Source: Gaeumannomyces sp. JS-464
Lineage: Eukaryota > Ascomycota > Sordariomycetes > Magnaporthales > Magnaporthaceae
Assembly (NCBI GenBank): GCA_002197995.1
Contig: NGZR01000003.1
Location: forward strand, 6,944,001-7,008,000
Direction: 5' to 3'
DNA length: 64,000 nucleotides
The position numbers were made by a program, and so were the translations under genes. Shown one piece after another: positions 6,925-59,822 of the stretch. The notes under the pieces were generated by a model. The model was not told the DNA's origin. It made no database searches and worked only from the letters and a program-made list of their open reading frames with translations. Every line of letters begins with the position of its first letter. Within the stretch, counting starts at the first letter, position 1.

Positions 6925-9900
6925 TTATAATACCGGCGGGAAGCCTATAACCTTATACCGATCCGGAAAGTTGTTTTTAAACCATGCGTTCCGGGCGTCC
7001 CGGGCTGTTTTCCGGGCCAAAGCCTTTACTCCGGCTACCGTTGGTTTAAAATGTTGGGGTATTGGCAGGGCCGATCCCAACTTTGCTTCGGCGTTTGCCT
7101 TTTCGTTTCCGGGGATTCCCATATAGCCCGGGGACCAGCGTACGCATACCTGGTGTTTATCCATAAAGCAATGGATTTTTTAAAAGCCCTTTGTAAACTA
7201 TCAAAGGCCGTGCTTAAACAGCCGTTGGCCGCCGAGGTGTTATCGAGGCACAAGTGGAAAGTGCAATTGCGGAAGCTCCAAACGGCTTTACGGAAGCCCA
7301 TTCGGGCCCCTTCCGCTTCGCCGTCGAACACTTCCGCCGGATGCGCTAACCGGCCGTGCCCGGAAAGTTTGCGTTGGCCGGCTTGTATTACCCAGCCGTA
7401 TCCAACTGCCCCGTCTTTTGCTTTGGACCCGTCGCTATATATTATAACGTCGGTAAGTGGGAGGGTGCGAAGCCACGTTATAAAAGCTTTTGCGGCTGCG
7501 GGCTTTTTTTATGTGGCCACCGTAAGCCCCGTGTATTTATACGAAAGGTAGGCCGGGCGGGTGCAAGCCGAAAAAAGTCCGGCCGTCCTTTACAAAAAAG
7601 TCGCAAGCTTGCCGGGTAAGCCTGCCTTAAGCCCTCGGGCGTTAAAAGCCGGCTTGGCCGCTGCGGCCAGGGGTGATTTTCCGGAACCGTATTTATACGG
7701 GCCGCGAAACGAAGGCGGGCTTGTTTTAAAAGCGCTTGGGCGCTTGGGATGCCGGATTCGTAATGCAGGGCGTTTATCGGTGCGGTTTTCCAAGCCGGAA
7801 CCACTGCCCGAAAGGACGCGGTTAAAGCTTTATCCACCCGTTCGATTAAATGGCCTTAGCGGATATGTTGCTGTTATGCTGGTTTATACGGGTGTGGTTT
7901 GGTTTTGCCCTTATATTACACCTTAGCCCCGTATAAAGCCGTGGGGATTATAACCGTCGTAACGGCTTTATGTATCGAATGTGCCGGTATCCCCCCTATC
8001 GAGTTCGTAAGCCTCCGGAAGTGGTTGGCAACGCTTTGGGCTTTTGCAGCCTTATTATCGACGTGGGTTTTAAAATTAAGCCGTTGGTTGAAAAGAACCC
8101 CTAACCACCGTAAAGCTCTTGTAGCTTGTTATATGGTAAGGCTTTCCGCCGTAACCGCTGGGGTGTGGGGTTTTTTCCGTGGAAAAATGCATAAGTTCGC
8201 ACTTCCCCGGGTCGAAAGCAACTTATTAGCCTTCCCTAACGTAGGATTTCCGTTACCGTAGCCCCTGCTTTACGGGAGCACTTTTCCGGTGCTACCCGTT
8301 ACGCAAATGCTTATATCGTCCGCGTATCCGTACTAACCGCTTTTGCTTTAGGTAGGATTTTATATAAAGCATAAACAGGACCGGTAACGCCGGTAACCTT
8401 TGGGGTAGCCCGCAGTTCGGGGAAAAAGGGGGTGCCGGTGGCGTTTTAAACGCACTTTAACCACCCTGTTTTTGCAAAAATAATACCATCGTATTAACGT
8501 TAATCCAGCCTTGGTTTAAAAGTTCCGAAAAAGCCTCCGGCGGAGTACGGCGTCGAAAGCCCCTTACATCCATGGTAACGAGGGCGGCCGATTTATGCTT
8601 TTGGAAGGCCCGTTCCACCTCGTGGGCACGCATGCCGTTAAATCGATGGCGGCCTTTTTCGGGGTAGCCCCGGCGTGTTGCGGGGCTATAAGCCCGTGTT
8701 GTAATGCGAGGGACGCCATCCGCGAAGCCATAGCCGCTTTAGCCCTTTCCCTAAGCACGGGAGCAAAGCTATCGGGCGGTAGGATTTTGGGTCCGTTATA
8801 TCCGTTTTATTCGGCTTTTTTAGCATAACCACCTCCGCTGTGCGGAAAGGGCCCGGGTGGTGCCCGGCTTTAAAGCAGGCTTCGAAAAGGCTTAACGTAT
8901 TCCCCTATTGCCGGCCAACCGCTGTAAGCAGTTTAACCGTTAAAAGTCGACGCCCGGGGCCGTGTTTGCCGTGCCGACGGTGCACTTCCGGCATTCCTCC
9001 AGGGGACGTGGGGGTCCCACGGGATTTGTGCGGTCCTTTGGGTAGCCCTTTGCTGTAACGGGTCCTTTTGTAATCGTCCTCCGCCGTAAACCTACGGAGG
9101 ATTTTGCGACCTAATGCTTCCGCTTTATCCCTTAGGGCTATTATAAACTCCCCGTTAATATTTAACGGGGGAAGCCGTATAGCGGGTGTAAGTTTATGCC
9201 ATTTTACAGCACGGTATAGCGCTTTCGGGGAATCCACTTCTTTAGCACGCTGGCCTAATGCTGTTTTTAGCCGTCCGAACCGTTGCTTTTAAAGCACGGG
9301 CTTCGGCCGTAAAAGGCCCGCCGTTTCCCATAGCTTTTGCGAGGTCCCGTTGGGCGTTGGCGCACTTTTCGTTCCACCAGGGTTAGCCTTTTCTTTTAGC
9401 TTTAGGCCCCCGGCCGAGGGCTATTAACGCATTTTTTAGCAGGTTTGTTAATGCCTCGGCCGCTTTATCCAGGTAATCCGTATGCTTGGATTTAAAGTGG
9501 CGGTAAGCTGCCGGCCCCCGTTGCTACCGCGTTTGCGAAAATCGGTAGTTTATCGTTTGGTAGCGTAACACGCCGGCATTCGGAACGGAGTTATTAGGTT
9601 TAGGACCTCGATCCGTATCGAGCGGTGGTCCGAATCGGTTGCTAGCGAAGGGTCGATTTCCGCTGTTGCCAAAGGGCGTTGGAAAAGGTAAAATCCAAAA
9701 CGCCCCATCGTTATGCGTAGGTTGGCCTGTCGGTAAGTAGGAGGAGGTTATAAGTATTAGCATTGGGCTATATTGGCCCCTATTCCTATTACCCCTAACC
9801 GGATCCCACGCCGGGACCCTGCGTTAAAGTCCCAGCTATAATGCATTTTGCCGTTGGGCGCTAACGTAGTAAAAGGTTTAACGAGGGTTCGAAGGGTCCC

Positions 9901-12390: not shown

Positions 12391-14436
12391 CAGCAGGAGA
12401 GAGAAAGAAAGTATATTTAACGTTAGTAAGTCGGGATTTACCAGTCCCTGCCTCCCAAGGGGCATATAACGTGCTAGCGCTACCTAAGCTTAACACTAGG
12501 CTATATGCTGCTATTAAAGCGGCTAACAAATTAAACCCGAAAGCACACGGGGGTCGGGCCGCATTCCGGCGCTCCTTGTTAGCGGGCGGGCAATCGGCAG
12601 TAGGGCGTAAAAATACGCCGGGGCGTTGTAAAGCGCTGCGGGTGGTAGTAATGCTGTTAGCCGGCGGGTATGCCGGAAAAAGGGTAAGGCCGGGTTTAGG
12701 CGGGGAGGGGGTTTTCGGAACCTCCCTTGGGCCCGGCCTAAAGTGCGGGGGATTAACGAGCCTACTGTTAATCCTAATAGTACAAAGGAAAAGGTTAAGT
12801 ATAGGCTTTTTTGGGCCTGTTGTTATCGTCCGGCGATAGTGTAATAGTTGGTGGCTTTAACGAACGAAGCGAAAAGGGAGGGCTTTTGGAAAAGCCGTTT
12901 CCAATATCCGGGCCTATCGAAAGCCGGGAAGGGTTCGCTATAGCCATTTTTTTCTGCCGCCCTCGCCAGCTTGCAAAATACAAAGTGGGAAGGGGATTAT
13001 TTCGCCCGCAACGGCACGGGTTGTCGTCTTCCGTGTTAGAACCTTCGGTGGTACCAGTCGAAATCCCGTGGCCGGTGCGTGCGGCTATTAGCCGTTGCAA
13101 GTACCTTCCGGTGCAGTTGCAACGCTTCGGGCGTGTGTTGTGTACCGGCGGGAGCCTATAGCCTTTACCGATCCGGAAAGTTGTTTTTAAACACATGCGT
13201 TCCGGGCGTCCCGGGCTGTTTCCGGGCTAAAGCTTTTACTCCGGCCACCGTTGGTTTAAAATGTTAGGTATTGGCAAGGCCGATCCCAACTTTGCTTCGG
13301 CGTTTGCCTTTTCGTTTCCGGGGATTCCCATATAGCCCGGGGACCAGCGTACGCATACCTAGTGTTTATTCATAAAGCAATGGATTTTTTTAAAAGCCCT
13401 TTGTAAACTATTAAGGGCCGTGCTTAAACAGCCGTTGGCCGCCGAGGTGTTATCGAGGCACAAGTGGAAAGTGCAATTGCGGAAGCTCCAAACGGCTTTA
13501 CGGAGGCCCATTCGGGCCCTTCCGCTTCGCCGTCGAACACTTCCGCCGGATGCGCTAACCGGCCGTGCCCGGAAAGTTTGCGTTGGCCGGCTTAATGTAT
13601 TACCTAGCCGTATCCAACTGCCCCGTCCTTTGCTTTGGACCCGTCGCTATATATTATAACGTCGGTAAGTGGAAGGGTGCGAAGCCACGCATAAAAGCTT
13701 TTGCGGCTGCGGGCTTTTCTTGTGTGGCTACCGTAAGCCCCGTATATTTATAAGGGATGTAAGCCGGGCGAGTGCAAGCCGGAAGGAGTCCGGCCGTCCT
13801 TTGCAAAAAGGTCGTAAGCTTGCCGGGTAAGCCTGCCTTAAGCCCTCGGGCGTTAAAAGCCGGCTTAGCCGCTGCGGCTAAGGGGTGCTTTTCCGGAACC
13901 GTATTTATGCGGGCCGCGAAACGAAGGCGGGCTTGTTCCAAAAGCGCTTGGGCGCTTGGGATGCCGGATTCGTAATGCAAGGCGTTTATCGGTGCGGTTT
14001 TCCAAGCCGGAACCACTGCCCGGAGGGACGCGGTTAAGGCTTTATCCACCCGTTCGATTAAATAACCTTGGCGGATATATTGCTATTGTGCTGGTTTATA
14101 TGGGTGTGGTTTGGTTTTGCCCTTATACCACACCTTAGCCCCGTATAAAGCCGTGGGGATTATAACCGTCGTAACGGCTTTGTGGACCGAGTGTGCCGGT
14201 ATCCCCCTATCGAGTTCGTAAGCCTCCGGAGGTGGTTGGCAACGCTTTGGGCTTTTGCAGCCCTGTTGTCGACGTGGGCTTTAAAGTTAAGCCTTTGGTC
14301 GAAAAAAACCCTTAACCACCGTAAAGCTCCTGTAGCTTGTTGGATGGTAAAGCTTTCCGCTATAACCGCTGGGGTTGTAGGGTTTTTCCGCCTGGAAAAA
14401 TGCATAAGTTCGCACTTTCCCGGGTCGAAAGCCTCT
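12391..14436 (-). mobile_element. Tad1-like LINE, 5'-truncated (copy B)
   Basis: About 2.05 kb, collinear with 6175-8220 of copy A and closely similar. It begins inside the RT domain: the minus frame near 14,190-14,430 gives KCELMHFSRRKNPTTPAV and LRVFFDQRLNFKAHVDNRA, the RT segment after YADD. It runs through the RNase H region (about 13,260-13,700) to the same 3' end as copy A. The 5' truncation is the usual product of incomplete target-primed reverse transcription. The right flank (ggacagcaagacctaaat) is pogo sequence. Confidence 0.85.
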
Positions 14437-14600
14437 GGACAGCAAGACCTAAATGGGCAGCTACAGTAAAAATGCGCGACTATAGGGGTTAAAAAAGGAG
14501 GGCGACGACGACTCGTCGGCGATGTGGCACGTGCGGCAAGACCGGACACAATGCGCGCACCTGCCAGGAGGAAGTAAAAACGTCCGATGTATACAATTCC
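14437..14600 (+). pseudogene. pogo transposase C-terminal knuckle, separated from its N-terminus
   Basis: Codons 14523-14564 read CGTCGKTGHNARTC, the cysteine/histidine knuckle found at the C-terminus of many fungal Fot1/pogo transposases. The same block occurs in copy 1 on the minus strand near 740. This is the continuation of the transposase at 4755-6174, displaced by about 8.3 kb of LINE sequence. Confidence 0.8.
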
Positions 14601-14713
14601 GAGTAGTTTAAATGGATTCCTGGCGTTATTGGGTTGGCATGCGCGTCGATTAACTAAAGGTCGGGTGTGGGTGCGCCACTTACTTATGTGCGCCACTTAC
14701 TTGTGAACTACGT

Positions 14714-21146: not shown

Positions 21147-22094
21147 GTTATTTAATAAATAGTTTGTTAATATCGTTTTAAAATTTAGCTAAAAAAATTT
21201 TAACCGCGGCAAAACGTTTTTATAATTCCGCGATAATAACTGCCAAATTTAAATGGTTATAAAAGGTTAAAATTGAAATTTTAACCTTTTTTAACGAAGG
21301 TAAAATTAGTGTTAACATAATTATAATCCCGCGTTTGGAAAAAGATTTTACAAAAATGTAATAAGCTAAGCTAATAGGTAATGGCTAATAAAAGCCTAAA
21401 TAATGTTATTTTGTAAAATGAAAAGGAATAGAAAGGAAAAAAGTTGGCTTAGTCCTGGAAGCTGTCCCTAGTTATATATGCACAAAGACGGCTTAAGGGT
21501 AACCTTTAAGCCTTTTACCCGTGCTACTAGCACGGAACCATAACACTAATAGCTAGCTACTTTAGTTATTTAAAAGTTGCTTTAATAGCCGGTTATTCCA
21601 GCTATTTAAAAGTCGTTTTAATAGCTGGCTACTTTAGCTACTGTTTATTTTATTTGCATGTAACCTTTTAGCAGTTTCTCCTTTTTCGTCCTAACGCTTA
21701 CTGGTTTTAACCGATCCCCCCCCCCCCCCCCCCCCCCCCCTTCCTGGCTGCCTCCGGTGGCCCGCATACTAGTCGTAATAGCAACGATATATCCTTAACG
21801 TTTTTTTTTTTTTTGCTTTAATATTGCTCGATTTACACAAATACACGAGGAAGGATCCCACGTCCTTTTATGTGAATTTTTAAGCTAATTTTGCCAATCC
21901 TTATGCAGATTTGTGGATTTGCAATAGCTTTATAATTGTTAGTTTAATAATTTTTAAATAGGGAGTAGCTTTCCTACAGCTAATGTTAAAAAGTCTCCGT
22001 CCACCCCTTTTAGCCATCCACCCTGATAACAACCACGCTACTTTAACCGCACAATTTACATACGAAAAGTAGTTAAATTTGCATTTAAATACAT
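21147..22094. other. AT-rich spacer with a 25-base C tract
   Basis: No gene. A run of 25 C occupies 21716-21740. Short gctatttaaaagtcg/ttaatagctgg-type repeats lie at about 21,550-21,645. Part of this may belong to the Tc1-like element that follows; I found no clear terminal inverted repeat. Confidence 0.4.
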
Positions 22095-23182
22095 TTATTG
22101 GAATGCTAAACTTCTAAAGTTCAATATTTGGTATACCAGCCCCGTGCAGCCCGCAACGCGGCCACCCTCCGTGGCATCCGTCGAAAAGCTTATTAATAAA
22201 CCCTTATAGGACTGCCTCCACGCCGCGACGATTGCAATATGAAATTTAGCTCGATCCGCGTCGTTGTCCTTAAGTAAATGCAATTCGGGGTTATCCCTAC
22301 GCAGGATTTGCTTAACAAGCTTTTAAACGTGCTTAATAGGGTTTTATCCGGGCTGTAAAACGGCCATTTAATCGGATTTATCCGTAAAGCCTAAACCACC
22401 TTTTAGCCGCTGCAAACGTATAAATACGTGCATTATTTTGCTGGAAAAAACGCGGGTTGCGCTTTCCTAAACCCGAAACCTTTAGGAAACGTGTATACGA
22501 CCACGTTATATAACCGCTTTTCTTGGAAGTAGGGTCCCTTGTTATAAGTACCAAAAAAGACCTTCCACCCTTTCAAATAAAGCTGTAATACATTTGGGAA
22601 AGCGTAAATTTAACGTGCGATTTCGGTTCGACAAAACGGCGTTCGTACTTTTGCCTAAGGAGTCGAAAAAACCATTCATTTGCACTTTTATTGGGGTTGT
22701 TCTTAAAGGTAACCTCGTTAAAAAATTCCCCTAATTTTCGTTAGTTAAGGGCTCCATAAATACACCAACTTTAAAGCCACGTACCTCACTTAATTCGTGC
22801 TTTTTTCCCTGCCAAGTAGATGCAAAAGTACGGCGGTGAGCTGCATTAACTAGGTTTAAAATAATCCGCTTAACAAGGCGCCATTTGCGCGAATACTCGC
22901 GGGGCAAACTTAACCGAAGGGTGTTGCGGCACACCGGAGTAGGGCACAGCCCTATAAGCTCGTGATACCGCATTCCGGGTTGGCGCTTGACCGTTGTTAA
23001 GATATATCGCTTTTGGGAGGGCGTAAGCTTTTTAAGGGTGCCAGAACGAGGTAAAGAATAAAAGGTTCCGTAGGTCTCGAAGCGATTAATGGTATCGCGA
23101 ATGGTGGCGCGTCGACAGCCAAACAGGCGGGCCAACTCGGACTTGGAAACGCCGATCGCAGCCTAACCATAAATGGTCGCAC
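22095..23182 (-). pseudogene. Tc1/mariner-type transposase, decayed
   Basis: The minus-strand frame 23135-22731 begins with a paired-like helix-turn-helix (LARLFGCRRATIRDTINRF, then SGTLKKLTPSQKRYIL and PGMRYHELIGL), typical of fungal Tc1-like transposases. Lower down in shifted frames come a DNARIYTSAA-type block with the catalytic Asp region damaged (about 22,430), INPIKWPFYSPD (about 22,360), which is the 'WP.-YSPDLNPIE' landmark before the last acidic residue, and a C-terminal segment (22283-22095) ending with the frame. Several frameshifts and stops; inactive. Outer boundaries of the element are unresolved. Confidence 0.8.
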
Positions 23183-27492: not shown

Positions 27493-28941
27493 TCACTCGA
27501 AAAGCTCTGGACCAACACCGAAGTCCGCGTAGCTTTGCAAAGTTGTTGCGTGATCCGTTGTCATCATCCTTCCGTTCTGGTAGTAAAGTTCCCTTTTCAC
27601 CACATATGTATGTGCTATTTGCGGAACTAGTGGATCGTCCACATCAGGATCTGTAAGTAACGACATGAGCCCACTCAGAAGGCACGAGGTGGTCAAGCCG
27701 GCGTCCCATTTTTCTTGGAGGGTGCTCATGCATACCTCCCCTGCGGCATTGATGTTGGGGTGATAAATCTGTGTTAGTAACCTGAGCTTTGGCGGCGCAA
27801 ACGGATAGCCGCTGTTAAACGCCATGACGGCGTGGAAGATGCCGCCTCGGTAGACGCTGTACGGAGGTCCCTCGAAAGTGACGCGAGACAACGTCTTCTC
27901 GGGCGAAGACTCCAATAATCGCATCGAAGCCCAAGGGAATCCAGCGTCTTCGAGGATAATCTTGGTTTCCTTGGCTATACGTCTTTGGCTGGTGGAATAT
28001 TTTTCGTTGTGCCGGCCCACGAAAAAGGCATCGAACTGGTCCTTGTCCTTGGATTTCAGGGCTTGTAAACAATCGCCCCACCCCTTATCGCCCAGGTGAA
28101 TGGGAGCGTGTGCATCGCCGATCCCTTGCTCTTCTGCTTCCACTTCCTCTTCTTCTTCTTCTTCTTCGATGCGTGATAGGTGAGACGGAGCAGTGTCGAA
28201 TGTCTGCCGCTCGCCGCTCCAGCTCGAGGTTCTAGAGACAACAGCCGTACCGTCCCCAATCAGACGGATACGCTGGCTCGCAGCGTCGGAGATGAGGCTC
28301 GCCTGGTCCGACTCGGGCTGGGTAACGACCATGCTTTGTAGGACCTCGAGGTTGGTGGCTGTCCCGATCTCATGTCGGATGATACTGTTCTCCAGCCGGA
28401 ACAAGTCCAAGTTCTACGCCACAAACTCCAATGCGGTGAGACATTTCTCCAGCTTCTGGACGATGTCCTCGCATCGCTTCGTGTCTCTCAGCCCAAAGCT
28501 GAAAAAGCCACGCAGGCCGGCCCTCTTCTTTGTTCTGCGGATCTTGCTAAGGGCGTCGTTCAATCCAGCCTCGAAGAACTGCGAGTTCACGCCAACCGCG
28601 CTGGACCCAATCGAGGGCCGGGGCAGCGAGTCGTCGACGTGGTACCGCCTCGCCAACTTCTGCGCGTCCAGGAAGAGCAGGGCGATGCGGTTCAGCTGCT
28701 TCTTGACGTGACACTCTCACTCGCCGCTCAGGCGTGGATCCGGGCCGTTGGCACCCAAGTAGCCGCATGCTCTGGCCCAGGCGAAGAGGCGAATAGATTG
28801 GTGGCTCATATCGGCCTCGAATTGCGCGTAGTTCCGTCCGATGGAGAGGCCATCCTGCACAAAATTGTAGCAGTCAAGACAGACACTAATCGGGCCGGAG
28901 ACGCCGAGCAAGCCGAGCGTGACGCCGATGGGCTCGGCCAT
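27493..28941 (-). pseudogene. HeLo domain fused to a ubiquitin-conjugating (E2) domain; two in-frame stops
   Basis: One reading frame of 483 codons. Residues 1 to about 215 match the HeLo (HET-S/prion-inhibition) domain: AEPIGVTLGLLGVSGPISVC, LDCYNFVQDGLSIGRNYAQF, then IALLFLDAQKLARRY and the closing ASLISDAASQRI segment. An acidic linker (IEEEEEEEEVEAEEQ, about 258-272) leads into a UBC fold at about 317-462. That fold has PPYSVYRGGIF, the YHPNI box (His at about 394) and a catalytic Cys at about 404 in GEVCMS (codon 27730-27732). TGA at 28717-28719 and TAG at 28414-28416 interrupt the HeLo part; the UBC part (from 28410) is intact and could be made alone. HeLo domains form membrane-targeting cell-death modules in fungi and E2 enzymes carry ubiquitin; the joint function is inference. 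The fusion is visible in the frame; whether the stops are real is not. Confidence 0.75.
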
Positions 28942-29465: not shown

Positions 29466-30895
29466 TCACTTCCCCTTAAAATGTTGCGTAAAGTCATACC
29501 GCATGTCCAGGCTCCCCAGCAGCAGCTGCCGCATCAGCGCCTCATCCGTCTCGCCCTTGCGCAGCAGCCCGAGGAACTCGTCCGTGTCCTTGAGCGAGGC
29601 CGGGTCCTCGGTGTAGGCGATGCGCCTAAAGTTGCTCGACGAGATCTCGTCGACGATGGTCTTGTACTTTTCGATACGCTTCTCGCTGTAAAGGTCCAGG
29701 ATCGACTCGTCGGCGACGCCGTCCCAGATGCCGCCCAGGCACTGGTCCAGGCCGCCGACGTCGACGAACCCGCCCGTGATGCCCAGCCCGCCCAGGGGTT
29801 GCACAGATGCGCGGCGTCGGCGGCGAGGAGGACTCGGCCCACGCGGAAGGACGGCGCGCAACGTTCTTTGGGGATCGGGCAGTACCGTCAGTGCCAGGGG
29901 TAGAACAGCGCGTAAAAAAAAAAAAAAAAAAAGGGGGGGGGGGGGGGGGGGGGGGGGGGCAACCCACGATGCATCCTGTATGGCGAAAAATTAATGACTT
30001 TGTACTGGTCTGGCTTAGGATGCCCAGGGAGGATCTCCTCAAATCTCGCCTCCATGCGCGCCCGCATCTCCTCGGTCGTCAATCCCGTCTTTTCGCCGTA
30101 CGTAATCCGGTAAAGGCCCTTCGCGTCTAGTTTGGCAGCGAGCTGTAATTCGGCATGTCAGTAATCAGCCAGACTCAGCAGGATGGTAGAGAATCCCGAC
30201 GACGCACATAGAAGTTCTCAGGGTGGACGTTGATGGTCACGTCCCCGAAGCCATACTTGTCAAAATCATAGTACGTGTTGGTCGCCACGATCTGCTTCTC
30301 CCACGTAAAACCGGGAACTCGGACCCGAACAGCGACCGCCGCACCTGGCTGCCGGCGCCGTCGCACCCGACCACGTAGTCGCCCTCGATCCGCCTCTCGC
30401 CCTCGGGCGCCTCGACGTCCACCCACGCCCCGGCCCCTCCTGCCCGACCCGCACGACCCGGTGCCGCCAGCTGACCTCGCCCCCGTGCCGCTCCACAAAC
30501 AGCTCGAGCATCAGCGCGCACAGGTCGTGCAGCGCGAGGCAGTGCGAGCGGTAGTCGAACCCGTCCACGTCCCTGATGGCGTTGCCGTCCATGACGGCCA
30601 GGCGCGCGAACCCGGTTCCCGGGCGCGACTCCTCGGCGGAGCCCACGGGCACGGCGTAGCGGTAGTTGACGTCGGTGATGATGATGCCGCGCTTCTTGAT
30701 CTCGGCCAGCACGCCGGCGCGGTCGAGGTCGGGTAGGGCGGGCGAGCCGTAGTGCGCCGCGCGCGGCTGCCCGTCCAGCTTGTCCTCGGCCTCGAGCAGG
30801 TGCACGGGGATGCCGCGCTGCGAGAGCATCAGGGCCAGCAGCAGCCCAGCGGGACCGGCACCAACGATGATGACCTGGTGTTTTATTTGTTCCAA
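29466..30895 (-). CDS. FAD-dependent aromatic hydroxylase (PHBH-type monooxygenase), three exons, three frame breaks
   Basis: The start at 30895 gives a Rossmann FAD site at once (VIIVGAGPAGLLLALMLSQR), then the DYVVGCDGAGSQVRRSLFG block typical of the class, YGFGDVTINVHPENFY, and VLLAADAAHLCNP plus GGLGITGGFVDVGGL, the second FAD site. Exons are 30208-30895, 29968-30142 and 29466-29865. Intron 1 (30143-30207) is GTGCGT...ACAG with a CTGAC branch; intron 2 (29866-29967) is GTGGGT...AAAG. Three frame changes, each explained by one missing G or C, lie near 30,430, 30,313 and 29,796; with them the product would be 421 aa, the usual size for salicylate/4-hydroxybenzoate-type hydroxylases. The enzyme class uses FAD, NAD(P)H and O2 to hydroxylate phenolic rings; the substrate is unknown. 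No biosynthetic cluster partners are next to it. Confidence 0.82.
29914..29959. repeat. Compound homopolymer A19-G27 inside a monooxygenase intron
   Basis: 19 A (29914-29932) directly followed by 27 G (29933-29959). On the coding strand this is C27-T19, a 46-nt pyrimidine run in intron 2, starting about 8 nt after the donor. Confidence 0.9.
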
Positions 30896-31787
30896 CCAGC
30901 CGGGGTCGGCGTTGAGTGGATGTCAGTTAACTGGTGATACATTGATTGCTTGGGCCGAGCAGCGAAGGAAAGGAGCGGCCACCTCGGCAGGATTAAGCCC
31001 AGGGGCCAAGGCATCCATCACGGGGGTCCTTGGCCATCTTGTGTACGAACCTTCTTGAATGGCCGTTCCATTTTGCGGGCGGCGTAATACGTGGGGAAAG
31101 CCTGCGTGGTTTGCAGTGACGGAATGGGCCGCCGGGACGATAGCAATCACTGACAGCGGAGAAAGGGGGTTCTTGAAGACGAGGGCACCGAGGTATTCGT
31201 TAGCGCCCCCACGTTCTCGCGCAGGTCTAGGGTTCGGCTTCATTTTCCCTGCCCTCCAACACGGAATATCCCTCATTGGCCATCTGCCGGGAGATTCGGC
31301 ATGACGGGGATTTCCCCCGCATGTATCCCAGACCAGCAAACCAGCCACACTGTGGGATCTGGTGGGATCGTGGGTGATTTCCGATGGAACCCTGGGGTTA
31401 TGCATTGCCTGCAAATATCGACCAATGGCGGCCAGCGACATTGCTTTGCTCGTCGCATGTTGCCGATATGCACAGATGACACACATACGTATAAACATCC
31501 ATGGCATCCATGAAGCTTCCCCGCTCCAGGCACCGTACGGCGCGGCGCGCTGGACCTCGGCACGAGACAAAAGGTGGGAGAATCGAGGTTCTCCCGGCAC
31601 GAACGTCCTGCAAGTTCGGACTTGTGCTGAGATTGAAATTATGGCGATTGCGTGTATTTAAGGCGAGAAATCAAAGTCTTACACAACGTACCCATATATC
31701 CAAACTCAAGTGCATCACTTACGTACAGCCCAGAAACCAAGGCAGAGGCCATAATGGGGGCGGTGGGAAGGAGGCTGAGGCATCCCC
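30896..31787. other. Intergenic between monooxygenase and GH5 gene
   Basis: About 890 bp. A 225-codon minus frame (30923-31600) spans most of it, but it has no motif, no biased third positions that I can see, and competing frames on both strands; I treat it as chance. It should hold the monooxygenase promoter and the GH5 3' end. Confidence 0.5.
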
Positions 31788-45344: not shown

Positions 45345-45783
45345 GTTGACCTAGAATCGGGAGTTGGTTAATTCTTTTTCGAGTCGCGGTTTTTTGAGGA
45401 TGTATGTGGGAGTACGCTGGGCCGAATTTGAGATGCACAAGCACCTTTTTTTTTTCTCCCTCTTTGTCAAGTCGGAAATTCTGGTCCAGAACCCGCGCGG
45501 TGTGGCCTTACTCCTTTTATAATTAATTCGCCTATTCCACCCGACCTCTTGGCAAGATCCCTCTCCGAACTCCAACGTCGTCAACTGACAATGGATCTAA
45601 GGAGTGACCAAGCCACAATAATCTCGTGCCCCACGTCACGTGACACCGACAGCAAGCATTCAATCGGACGCCACAACTGCCAATTGAGCTCTGTTCCATC
45701 CATGTTGATAGCAAAGCAGGAAGGCGGCTGCCACAGCCTGACCAAAGCAACTGGCACCCTGGTGTAAGTATTGTGTGGTCGCG
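45345..45783. other. Divergent promoter region between the unknown gene (-) and the ATPase (+)
   Basis: About 440 bp, no gene. A CACGTGAC element (45,656-45,664, in ccacgtcacgtgacacc) is a plausible bHLH-type site. The rest shows no clear signal. Confidence 0.4.
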
Positions 45784-48157
45784 ATGCTGCAGCGCCGTGC
45801 TTGGCAGTGCAATGCACACTTCCTCCCCCAGGGAAAGCTCAGCCACGAAGGCTCTCGCCTGAGCCATCACACCCAAACACACCCGTTGTTGACACGGTCG
45901 CGATATCAACAAGGAAATGCGCCTGGCGCGCCATTTCGTCAGCGGCGACAAGCACACACCTCACCAGCCACAGCACGCGCCTCCGCGGCCACGCTTTCCG
46001 GCCGCGACGACTCATTTCACCCACCTCACGGCCTGTTGGTGGTTCCTCAGCACCGGTACGCGCATGCGTCGTCGCCTCGCCTAAGCACCACAGGTGACGA
46101 GCAGCGCAGAGTCGCAGGCTGTGGGGCGCCCGCGTCGTCTGATAGGTTCTTCTTGTGGGGAAGTGTGCCGAATCCCGAGAGCCAGGGGCCGTCTGCATCT
46201 GCCTACCACCAACCCCTGACCTCGGGCTTGGGCCGGCAGGATTCGGCTCCGGTCCGTCTGACCTCGCCGGTTGGAAGCCCGTGCTTGTCTCGGCCTGCAC
46301 CTCCGACCTTGTATCCCCTTCCGTCCCCCCGCTCAGGCTCCAGAAGACACTTCTCTTCCAGCCAACCGAGGCAAGACAACGACTCAGATGGAGACGGCCG
46401 TGGCGATAGCCAGCCATCCCTTGGCTGGCGCATGCTGGAGTCCGCGGCCACTTCGTTTGCTTCCATATTCGTGCTAGCCGTCGGGTTCGGTGCCGCCGGC
46501 TATGGCTACCACAAGTTCTACAAACACCTGGTGCTTCAGAAGATGCAAGGCGCCTTCGAGCCTGGCGATCCTGTGCTGGACCTCGCGGCGATGAGCAAGG
46601 GCATGGCGGCATCGCCGCCGGCGCGGACCAAGGGTGACCACATGGAAGAAGCTCCCCACTGGGTGCAGCGTTCCGAGCAGAGAAAGGTCAACGACATTGT
46701 GGCTGGAGAAGAGGTTGGGCACTACTACCTTTTCCTGGGCGAGAAGGGCACGGGCAAGAGCAGCATGCTGCTGGACGCCATGCGCAAGATCGACGGCGAC
46801 GGCGTCGCAATGTTCGAAGCCCACGCCGACCTCGAGATTTTCCGCATCCGCCTCGGCAAGGCGCTCGACTATGAGTTCCACGAGGACTATATCGGCAGTT
46901 ATTTTAGCGAACGTGGACCCCGCGACACTACGGCTCTACTCGACATAGAGCGCGCCCTAAACAAGCTCGAAAAGGTGGCCATGCTCCACCGTAACAAACG
47001 GCCCTGGCCGTCGTCTCGTCGTCATCATCAACCAGATGCACCTGGTGCGCGATGACGATGACGGCAAGGACCTCCTGGAGCTGCTTCAGCAGCGAGCCGA
47101 GCAGTGGGCTGCTGCTAGGCTTGTCACTATGGTCTTCAACAGCGACGACTATTGGGTATATGAGCGTTTCAAGCAGCTCGCCACGCGCATGGAGGTGATC
47201 AGCATCCAGGACCTGCCCAAGACCGAGGCCACCGCAGCGCTCAAGAAGTACCGCCTCCGCCACTTCCAGCAGCACCTGTCCGACGATCTGGCCGAGAAGA
47301 TATATGACAAGGTCGGCGGCCGTCTGTCCTTCCTGAACCGTGTCGCCAAGGTCAAGGACAGTGACAGGATGCTCAAGAAATGCGATGACATCATTGAGAT
47401 GGAGAAGACTTGGTTTCTCAACCAGTGCTGGATCCTCGGCATGGAGATGGACGACGACGTGATGGATCAACAGAAGTGGGCCGTCAGTAACCGGAATCAT
47501 ACCCTCTCTCTCTATATGATGTCGATGTGTTATGCTGACAAGACATTTGACCCCAACCGCCGTGCGATGTAGGCCGCAGCAATGGTTCTTGCCCTAGCCG
47601 TAAGCCCTCGAGCCTTTCTCTACCAAGTGATACCCACCCCAGTTCCTCTCCTGCTAACACCGCTTTTGCCACCGCAGCTCGTCGATAAGGAGGCTGAAAT
47701 GGACAAGACGTACGATCCGGTCAAAGGCCACGTCTTGCCGTCGTTTGCCCTACACCAGGCGCAACAGATCATGACGCGCGCCGACTTCGTGCGCGCCCTG
47801 GACCGCCTCAACCTCTTCACCATCACTAGCAGGGCCCAGGTGCGCGCCTCGTCGGTGCCCATGCAGATGGCCTTCCGCGAGATCTGCTCCGAGCCAGGCT
47901 TCCGCCAGCACCTGGACGACACCCTGCTGCGCATCGCCGACATCGAGAGCCTCGGCCGCACGCGCGAGCTCGTCGCCAAGGACCTCGTGATCGGCGGCCA
48001 CTACGAGATCGAGATGCAGCACCCCGGCGCTGCTACTGCTTTTGGCGGTGGTGGCGGCGACCGCCCTTCCAAAGCAGTGGTCAGGCTGAGACAGCTGCCG
48101 GATACGCGCCCGGCTGCGTCGACCGGACCCGATGACCAACCGGAGGAATCTCCGTAG
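45784..48157 (+). CDS. Mitochondrial membrane-anchored P-loop (AAA-like) ATPase, three exons, one frame break
   Basis: The start at 45784 gives a basic, Ser/Arg-rich mitochondrial-type presequence, a transmembrane segment at about 222-243 (SFASIFVLAVGFGAAGYGY), and a Walker A motif GEKGTGKS at about 319-326. Walker B (VVIINQMHL) follows after a frame break near 47,002-47,008, where one surplus base or two missing bases fit. Exons are 45784-47482, 47573-47599 and 47678-48157. The first intron (47483-47572) has a GCTGAC branch and the second (47600-47677) a GCTAAC branch. A 27-nt middle exon (AAAMVLALA) is required to keep the frame. The C-terminal part (TRADFVRALDRLNLFTI ... GGHYEIEMQ) looks like a winged-helix-type end. 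About 734 aa. Likely an inner-membrane or matrix ATPase; exact role unknown. Confidence 0.8.
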
Positions 48158-57156: not shown

Positions 57157-59822
57157 ATGGATTGCTCGCTTCCCGTCGTGGCAAGCGATGGGAGCTTCCC
57201 CTGGTCCGACCGTCGCAGCATGGATTCAGATGACGACCCAGCCATGATGCTCATGAGGCGCCGAGGTGGATGGACTCCACGTTTCCACGTGTTCCTCTCT
57301 GCACCCCTCCGCTCGGCCATCCCACCTGGACCGCGCGGGTCAGCTCTCTCCATCAGCACCAGCATGGACATGATTATGGCCGCCGATGGCGTCTACGACA
57401 CCAGCTGCCCTCCATCCGCGACCGCCCCCACCATGATCCACTCAGCCTCCTCCTCCTCCTCCTGCGACGGCGACACGTGGAGCAACAGGTACGGAGACTC
57501 GGACGACCACAGCGCCGGCGAGAGCGCCCACGATGGTGACGCCCACTGGGAGCAGGGCTCGGATGATATCCTCACCCTGCCCAAGACGGAGCCGATGGAC
57601 GACGATGACTACGTCTGCATGGACGACCTCAAGGAGGTGCCACTGGCTCCTGTACCCAGCGGTGAAATTGTGACAGCCGGCATTCCTAAGGTCAAAAGGC
57701 CAAGGGGCCGCCCGAGGAAGCACCCCCTACCGCCCAACTGCGCCGCAAACAAGGTCACTAAGGGGCGGTCCAAGACGGGCTGCATTACCTGCCGAAAACG
57801 CAAGAAGAAGTGCGATGAGGCCAAACCGCGATGTAAGAGATTCATGTTTTTTTTTTTTTTTTTTTTCGAACCGGGATCGTCGCCCATGCAAACTATCCTC
57901 ATCATCTTCGTTCCCGTGCGTGAAATCTGACATCTGAGCTTTTTGGTTGTGTAGGCATGAACTGCGAGAAGAATGCTGTCGTCTGCGAGGGCTATCCAGA
58001 GAAGCAGATTTGGAAGAGCGGCAAGGAGAGGGCTGAGGAAGGTGAGTCGTGCCCCGCTGAACCTCAGTTGGTACTTCTTTGCCCATATGGCTGCTCACAA
58101 CTCTTCGTGGCTCAGCACGTCTCCAAACGTCCATCCCAACTGTTACCATGCAACCCATTTTTGATGGACTCGAAACGCTTGAAGATCGGATTTTCTGGAA
58201 GCATTACAACGACCACCTCAGCACCGTGTTGACCGTCGAAGGCGAGCATAGGAATGCTTTTAAGGAGTTGCTCATTCCCATCGCCACCAGGGACCGGGGC
58301 CTGATGCATTCGATTCTTTCCCTTTCCAGCATCCACCTGGACTACGACACTCCATACGGGATCAGCCTCCTCAAGAAGCACCCCAAGACAAACGTAGCGG
58401 CCTTGCGTGAGCGATCAGGCCACCACCGCGCCCAGGCTATGGATGCGCTGAGGAATCGTGATCCAAGGAGCTCCGATCTCTCGCTGTCGGCAACGTATGG
58501 TCAGATGCTGTGCCTCATCCTCGAAAGCGTCGCTGAGGGCCGGTCCGACACGCTGCACCGGCTCCACCTTGAAAGGGTATCAAACACTCATCCGCGAGTC
58601 ACCACCCCAGGACCCTGCGTTCCGGGCCTTCATCACCGAGTTTTTCCAGTACCACATTTTTGCCGACGAGCTCCTCAGTCAACAGGGCGATGCTATGACC
58701 CACGAGCTTTATGACGACCTTGCGCTCTCGCCGCCTGCCGAGTCTTTGGAAACTCCACGATTGCTGGGTGTCGTTGACGGGCTCTTTAGCCACCTTTGCG
58801 AGATCACGTCGATCCGCAACCGGATCAGGGAGAACTTGGAAGCGCAGGTCGATCCTCTGGTCGACTACCCTAGCCTCTACAAGGCCGAGGAGATCAACCA
58901 GGCCATCTCGGAGTGGGAGCCGAGCTGGCCGAGAGGCGACAGCAGGGAGCGCGTGGCTCCGCTGTACAAGCAAATGATGTGGGTGTATTTGTACCGCACC
59001 GTGTATCCACCCTCGACGTCGCCGGCTTCACCAGCCCCCTCGGTGACAAGTGTGTGTACGGCATCCACTATTTCCGAGGCATCTCTCCCTTCGCACAGCA
59101 TGCACTATCGCGTTCCGAATGCTGCTCCTGTTGGCGGATCGACATCGCTGGTGAATACCCCGCCAAAGTCGCCCGACAGCTCCTGCTCGCCGTCTCCTAA
59201 ACTCCGACCAAACAGCACTATCGCTACTTGGCCTCAAGGCCAGGACGTCCCGACCCCTCACAGCCCTCGACGAAACTCTATCGCACATCATGATGCCTCG
59301 GCCCACTGTGCCCCTTCCTCCGCTGTCTCATCCTTTTCCTATTCCAGTTGCGACAGCTCTTCTCCCCAGACCAAAAGGTCAAAATCAACCTCATCCTCGG
59401 CCGATACAGTCCATCAACAGAACCAGTACCAGTACCAACGACAGGCGACGCAGGACCAACAGCACTCCAGGGCCGACTCGCCACCGCCCGTCCGGCGCCC
59501 TTCCCAGGAGGACCCGAGGGTAACGCTGGCGGTGGAGCAGTCGCTCGACATCATCGACTCGCTCAAGCCGGCCGACCCTGCGCAGACGCTCCTCCTCATC
59601 CCGTGTCTCGTGGTGGGGACCGCGTGCTTTGCGCCACAGCAGCAAGACCGCATCCGCGCGGCCGTGCACGCCGTCAGGGGATATACGGGCCTGCGCAACG
59701 CGGACCGCGTCTTGGAGCTCCTCGAGGAGGTCTGGCGGCTCATGGCGGCGGGTGACTGGCTCGCCGTCTGGGATTGGCAGGGCGTTGCCACCCGCAAGGG
59801 GCTCGACTTCCTGTGCGCCTGA
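57157..59822 (+). CDS. Zn2Cys6 transcription factor with AT-hook and fungal-specific domain, one frame break
   Basis: Exons are 57157-57832, 57955-58041 and 58116-59822. Intron 1 splits the zinc cluster: CITCRKRKKKCDEAKPRC before it, MNCEKNAVVCEGYP after it, giving C-X2-C-X6-C-X6-C-X2-C-X6-C. Just upstream (about residues 178-188) RPRGRPRKHP is an AT-hook. Downstream, LETLEDRIFWKHYNDHLSTVL and LMHSILSLSSIHLDY begin the fungal transcription-factor domain of the Fungal_trans_2 type, which continues to about the C-terminus (SLDIIDSLKPADPAQTLLLIP, LLEEVWRLMAAGDWLAVWDW) around a Ser/Pro/Gln-rich loop. A frame change at 58569-58570 fits one surplus T; the expected length is then 822 aa. Intron 1 holds a T20 run. 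It is a nuclear DNA-binding regulator; targets unknown. The N-terminal ~100 residues before the acidic region are weakly supported. Confidence 0.85.
57847..57866 (+). repeat. T20 homopolymer in intron 1 of the transcription factor
   Basis: Twenty T in a row shortly after the GTAAGA donor, upstream of a CTGACAT branch site and the GTAG acceptor at 57951-57954. Confidence 0.9.

Follow-up and report, generated by a model that had tools for sequence, protein, structure and literature searches.

An interrupted HeLo-E2 reading frame in Gaeumannomyces sp. JS-464 and a little-noticed fungal family of HeLo-UBC fusion proteins

The 64,000-nucleotide stretch of the Gaeumannomyces sp. JS-464 genome analyzed here (the window; C23:6944001-7008000) carries on its minus strand, at 28941-27493, a locus in which a HeLo domain and a ubiquitin-conjugating (UBC, or E2) domain share one reading frame. 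An earlier sequence-only reading of this DNA had proposed that the two are fused in one frame. The shared frame holds, but it is not open, being interrupted by a TGA at 28717-28719 within the HeLo domain and a TAG at 28414-28416 close to its end. The Pfam profiles PF14479 (HeLo) and PF00179 (UQ_con) were run on the window pieces cut at stops. The first HeLo piece is made up of 74 codons from an ATG (28720-28941; E-value 1.8e-12, profile positions 1-66 of 205) and the second of 100 codons (28417-28716; 3.4e-8, positions 75-175 of 205), so that the predicted HeLo domain is found in both pieces of 28417-28941. The post-HeLo region and linker follow at 27886-28413, as placed by alignments and motif scans. 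The UBC domain (27571-27885; 1.3e-28, positions 31-136 of 140) is of the UbcH5/Ubc4 type and possesses the HPN box (27754-27762) and catalytic Cys (codon 27730-27732) reported before. Comparison with relatives defines a C-terminal tail at 27493-27570 that ends in FGVGPELFE and a TGA stop. Apart from the two stops, the order of HeLo then UBC in the same frame is that of the family described below.

Relatives of this locus are found in other fungi, where the sequence-only reading had suggested looking for the architecture. With the C-terminal piece as query, 8 matches were obtained, two of them carrying both domains; an alignment-based search yielded 28, of which 12 had precomputed hits for both domains; and a third homolog search gave 11, with one additional two-domain protein. 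Scoring in the third search was limited to the 7998 candidates with the most words in common, and the family size is a lower bound. At least 13 further proteins have HeLo followed by UBC in one chain, including Gaeumannomyces tritici GGTG_02436, G. hyphopodioides RB595_005793, Talaromyces amestolkiae BHQ10_005825, and Cylindrodendrum hubeiense G7Z17_g2699. The nearest named relative is that of G. tritici (55%). In our own domain scan, all 10 proteins covered (P0002 and P0011 lay outside it) carried both domains, as did P0029. Together, the profile E-values and the 13 further HeLo and UQ_con proteins argue against a chance domain assignment. On its domain content, the HeLo-UBC fusion is a real, recurring architecture; the fusion idea stands for the family and fails for the window copy as assembled, which is interrupted twice within its death domain. 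No relative was confirmed among IMG/VR viral contigs.

Conservation was followed in a set of 21 sequences composed of two genome copies, the 13 two-domain proteins, and P0012, P0013, P0021, and P0030-P0032, which are relatives without Pfam HeLo; plain E2 matches were excluded. An HPN or HAN box and the Cys are present in 21/21, and an Asp lies two residues after the Cys in 18/21. In 13 aligned rows (12 two-domain proteins and P0021), four residues are invariant: the Cys, a Trp after it, and the HPN-box His and Asn. That the E2 core is conserved even in distant members suggests that the fusion exists for the sake of its enzyme activity. In the linker, 15 of 18 rows match a strict pattern for QNxR[IL][MI]xxL and its variants (the P0018 match is poor). 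The strict pattern fails in the window copy, P0012, and P0014; a looser pattern recovers the motif in P0012 and P0014 and finds none in P0030-P0032. On a tree, the family UBCs separate from six plain E2 rows (96/96 branch). In P0019, P0020, P0021, and P0029, an insertion estimated very roughly at 20-30 residues follows soon after the catalytic Cys, unlike in UbcH5. By eye, P0010, P0011, P0012, and P0013 have in common a short tail, RPxxLAS[IL]F, and the window group has FGVGPE[LM]FE instead; both tails are possible docking motifs.

The window copy departs from this pattern in its linker and in its E2 domain. The linker keeps the SDAASxR and TAP motifs in alignments and lacks the QNxR[IL][MI]xxL motif under both the strict and the looser pattern. 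The acidic linker of the sequence-only reading is present as a Glu-rich run at ~28130-28170. This run sits at the conserved-motif position of the three closest relatives (the second genome copy on contig C12, P0001, and P0009), so it may replace the motif and need not function as a linker. Ser is found two residues past the catalytic Cys, in place of the Asp that corresponds to UbcH5 D87. The lost linker motif and lost Asp are signs of damage independent of the stops. The C-terminal tail is common to the window copy, the C12 copy, and P0001, and is shared by P0009 with one change. At 58 conserved C-terminal columns there are 13 departures in the window copy, 10 in the C12 copy, 4 in P0001, and 7 in P0009. 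The UBC tree branches of the window copy (0.33) and C12 copy (0.30) are of similar length, which weighs against long decay.

The genome searched is made up of 53.0 Mb in 34 contigs and has 11 HeLo and 31 UQ_con matches; the two occur within 2 kb of each other only at the window and C12 loci. In the genome-wide HeLo profile search, the window locus scored 93.7 bits with one TGA and one TAG inside. The second copy, at ~9389526-9391059 of C12 (L017 2527-4060), includes the start of HeLo (4.2e-14) as well as the linker motif and UBC domain, and its 339 C-terminal codons examined are stop-free. The two copies agree at 76% of 1446 aligned bases. Over 305 codons, nonsynonymous divergence (dN) is 0.258 and synonymous divergence (dS) 0.689 (dN/dS 0.375). 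Among other HeLo loci, L005 (C30:383307-384050; 3.7e-28) is followed by a weak protein-kinase match below the curated cut-off (7.2e-5), an MLKL-like layout; L002 and L003 have weak AAA matches, and L007 has a GPIID_WHD match (4.9e-6).

In the window, flanking open reading frames (ORFs) above the cut-off encode a flavin adenine dinucleotide (FAD) monooxygenase-like protein, GH5, Myb, and a fungal transcription factor. No NOD-like receptor (NLR) was recognised in the nine window ORFs scanned; other ORFs and amyloid motifs lay outside that scan. The ORF at 45742-47052, 17 kb away, has a sub-threshold AAA_16 match. The FAD-binding monooxygenase-like gene (29466-30922) spans several frames next to an A19/G27 tract (29914-29959), and further long single-base runs are found at 21716-21740, 21801-21814, and 57847-57866. 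Window positions 1-22000 are partly AT-rich with indices like those of repeat-induced point mutation (RIP; TpA/ApT 1.27-1.84). Retroelement-like pieces (~7035-7508 and ~14160-14696) and a transposase-like helix-turn-helix (22731-23162) were seen by eye and are not profile-confirmed.

Structure modeling of the relative P0010, rather than the window copy, gave a UbcH5-like fold. A first model, of P0001 on 13 sequences, was set aside as poor (mean predicted local distance difference test, or pLDDT, 47.8). E2 chains took up the PDB fold lists shown, which are uninformative on the HeLo half, so the link to HET-s rests on sequence, where the P0010 HeLo domain matches HET-s crystal chains at 2.9e-15. 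In the window copy, the HeLo first helix is hydrophobic (best 19-residue hydropathy 1.69 vs. 1.63-2.24 in nine kin), and membrane targeting is a predicted property. A Pro in this helix was considered as damage and dropped, as P0010 and P0016 have nearby Pro.

We tentatively take the locus, at slightly less than even confidence, to be a damaged, probably recently silenced HeLo-linker-E2 gene, the intact relatives of which would be assembly-controlled E2s. The simplest reading of HeLo with a conserved E2 core is that HeLo assembly would set the site and timing of the E2. A trigger would free the HeLo four-helix bundle, its hydrophobic first helix would move to the membrane, and HeLo units would cluster there. 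The E2 domains brought together in this way, of the Ubc4 type and loaded with ubiquitin by the ordinary ubiquitin-activating enzyme (E1) of the cell, would ubiquitinate nearby membrane or signalosome proteins, either marking targets for removal or building a signaling platform. The conserved linker motif might clamp the E2 onto the resting HeLo bundle. Several points weigh against this proposal. The window copy by itself would support no function, and the C12 copy as assembled has two frame changes within HeLo. The Asp after the Cys is lacking in 3/21 sequences (the window copy, P0021, and P0029), and the loop expected to contact the RING domain of any ubiquitin ligase (E3) partner differs among members (YPF, YPM, YPV, YPW, LPA). 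The structure model (predicted template modeling score, pTM, 0.50) has a low-confidence HeLo first helix and leaves the domains unplaced relative to each other, so the clamp is a guess.

If the stops were assembly errors, the window gene would be intact and working, which we consider improbable. Elsewhere in this assembly, an Hsp70 gene that we read as mitochondrial-type (L026, C1:7196900-7199400) is split over frames -3, -2, and -1, which abut with no intron room. In four chaperonin genes (C23 ~1547000, ~4057000, and ~7046000; C32 ~400000), adjoining profile parts overlap on the DNA and were read as frame changes without case-by-case inspection. The assembly probably has length errors, and in light of these genes the frame changes of the C12 copy and neighboring FAD monooxygenase gene may be errors as well. 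In the window copy, 305 codons downstream are open, with dN/dS below 1. The control errors, however, are length errors, whereas the window stops are substitutions. Internal stops were reported in 1/29 chaperonin matches (not resolved) and 3/16 Hsp70 matches; we read the three as lying one each in an intron, next to the frame break, and at an exon boundary. With no clear substitution stops among these controls, real window stops are favored, without certainty; nor would erroneous stops explain the loss of the linker motif and Asp. Introns spanning the stops were rejected, as the alignment of the window and C12 copies crosses both sites without an intron-sized gap; P0001 is also collinear there. 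RIP was rejected on substitution context and local indices. From the C12 copy to the window, C-to-T changes are found before A at 21/198, C at 30/215, G at 35/230, and T at 20/166 sites, totaling 106 vs. 101 in the opposite direction, and RIP indices are ordinary in the 2-kb block at 28001 (0.56, 1.27), unlike window 1-22000. Real stops could also be corrected in mRNA by adenosine-to-inosine (A-to-I) editing, restricting production of the death-type protein to sexual tissue or to times of virus attack. Such editing turns both UAG and UGA into UGG, and passages of PMC12754623 and PMC11169179 describe stop correction as the control on the Neurospora zao genes, which are antiviral and costly, and on the Fusarium gene CHE1. 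A passage of PMC3689799 reports enrichment of adenosine deaminases in the incompatibility-induced gene sets of Podospora and Neurospora. Editing is nevertheless very unlikely and the least credible of the explanations. It strongly favors a U 5' of the A and hairpin loops, as stated in part of PMC11156358, but a G precedes the A of the window UGA. Folding with 20, 30, and 50 flanking bases put the A of the UAG in a stem, an internal loop, or a bulge each time rather than in a hairpin loop, and both sites would require editing.

Two rivals concern the relation between the domains. In one, HeLo and E2 are two abutting separate genes, or a HeLo-less E2 starts at an internal ATG near 28330. The longest uninterrupted E2-bearing product, of ~279 residues, would start at an internal ATG, and P0030-P0032 are related E2s without Pfam HeLo in their records (P0030 and P0032 were also scanned). 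This is very unlikely, as P0001, P0009, and other predicted proteins combine the two domains in a single chain and align collinearly, and no close relative was seen with an E2-only start. The main rival to an assembly-controlled E2 is that the E2 is a brake: the UBC would ubiquitinate its own HeLo domain, removing or diverting the death module unless a signal blocks the E2. We regard this as unlikely, though less so than erroneous stops. In this reading the UBC occupies the place of the HET-S prion-forming domain or MLKL pseudokinase. The interdomain geometry is not resolved in the model, and Ubc4-type E2s usually act with an E3. In its favor, the E2 core is conserved, and the linker between the domains has conserved motifs. 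A passage of PMC8816944 also describes the HeLo domain of animal MLKL as ubiquitinated with K63 chains and diverted to endosomes.

A bolder and rather doubtful proposal is that the fusions would be a fungal family of ubiquitin-writing, death-type effectors. Assembly of their necroptosis-like HeLo bundle at a membrane would concentrate the protein's own Ubc4-type E2, so that membrane attack would be directly coupled to ubiquitin transfer nearby, perhaps with no dedicated E3 involved; the window duplicate would have been silenced as costly. A role in immunity or self/non-self recognition may be suggested from HeLo biology. As background to the assembly-controlled reading, the HET-S HeLo domain acts via an N-terminal helix directed to the plasma membrane (passages of PMC12881547 and PMC10197012). 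HeLo genes are overrepresented in the set that Podospora induces during incompatibility, and the set induced by Podospora and Neurospora alike shows enrichment of ubiquitin-degradation domains (passage of PMC3689799).

HeLo is the fungal kin of the four-helix bundle of the necroptosis executioner, which animals ubiquitinate via separate enzymes. One protein with both parts connects ubiquitin transfer to fungal death or membrane signaling of the HeLo type directly and in a testable way. The window copy is also a caution that a real family may hide behind one broken copy. The sequence-only reading knew of no characterised HeLo-E2 protein, and none is described in the titles, abstract openings, and passages of the best-ranked literature matches, with subscription papers and preprints outside that search. 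The word "ubiquitin" is absent from the main text of PMC10197012, PMC12881547, and PMC4986451; it appears once in PMC3689799, for the degradation domains of induced genes, and three times in PMC10951266, for a promoter. Databases already record both domains on GGTG_02436, so the architecture is recorded.

HET-S/HET-s of Podospora anserina has the N-terminal HeLo domain of the fusion family, with an amyloid prion-forming C-terminus where the fusions have a UBC domain. The HET-S/NWD2 pair has an adjacent NLR gene and an amyloid motif in common, and no NWD2-like NLR was found among the nine window ORFs scanned. MLKL and HeLo-kinase proteins, like the fusions, place a large enzyme-fold domain behind an N-terminal killer-type helical bundle; theirs is a kinase fold rather than an E2 fold. 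Ubiquitin is added to MLKL by a separate ligase, ITCH (passage of PMC8816944), unlike in a fusion with its own E2. From UbcH5/UBE2D and yeast Ubc4, the fusion E2s differ by the HeLo domain and long linker, their separate place on the tree, and their variable RING-contact loop. BIRC6/BRUCE, a large E2-bearing regulator of cell death in animals, likewise embeds a UBC domain in a bigger protein but has no HeLo, and is kin to the fusions in principle only.
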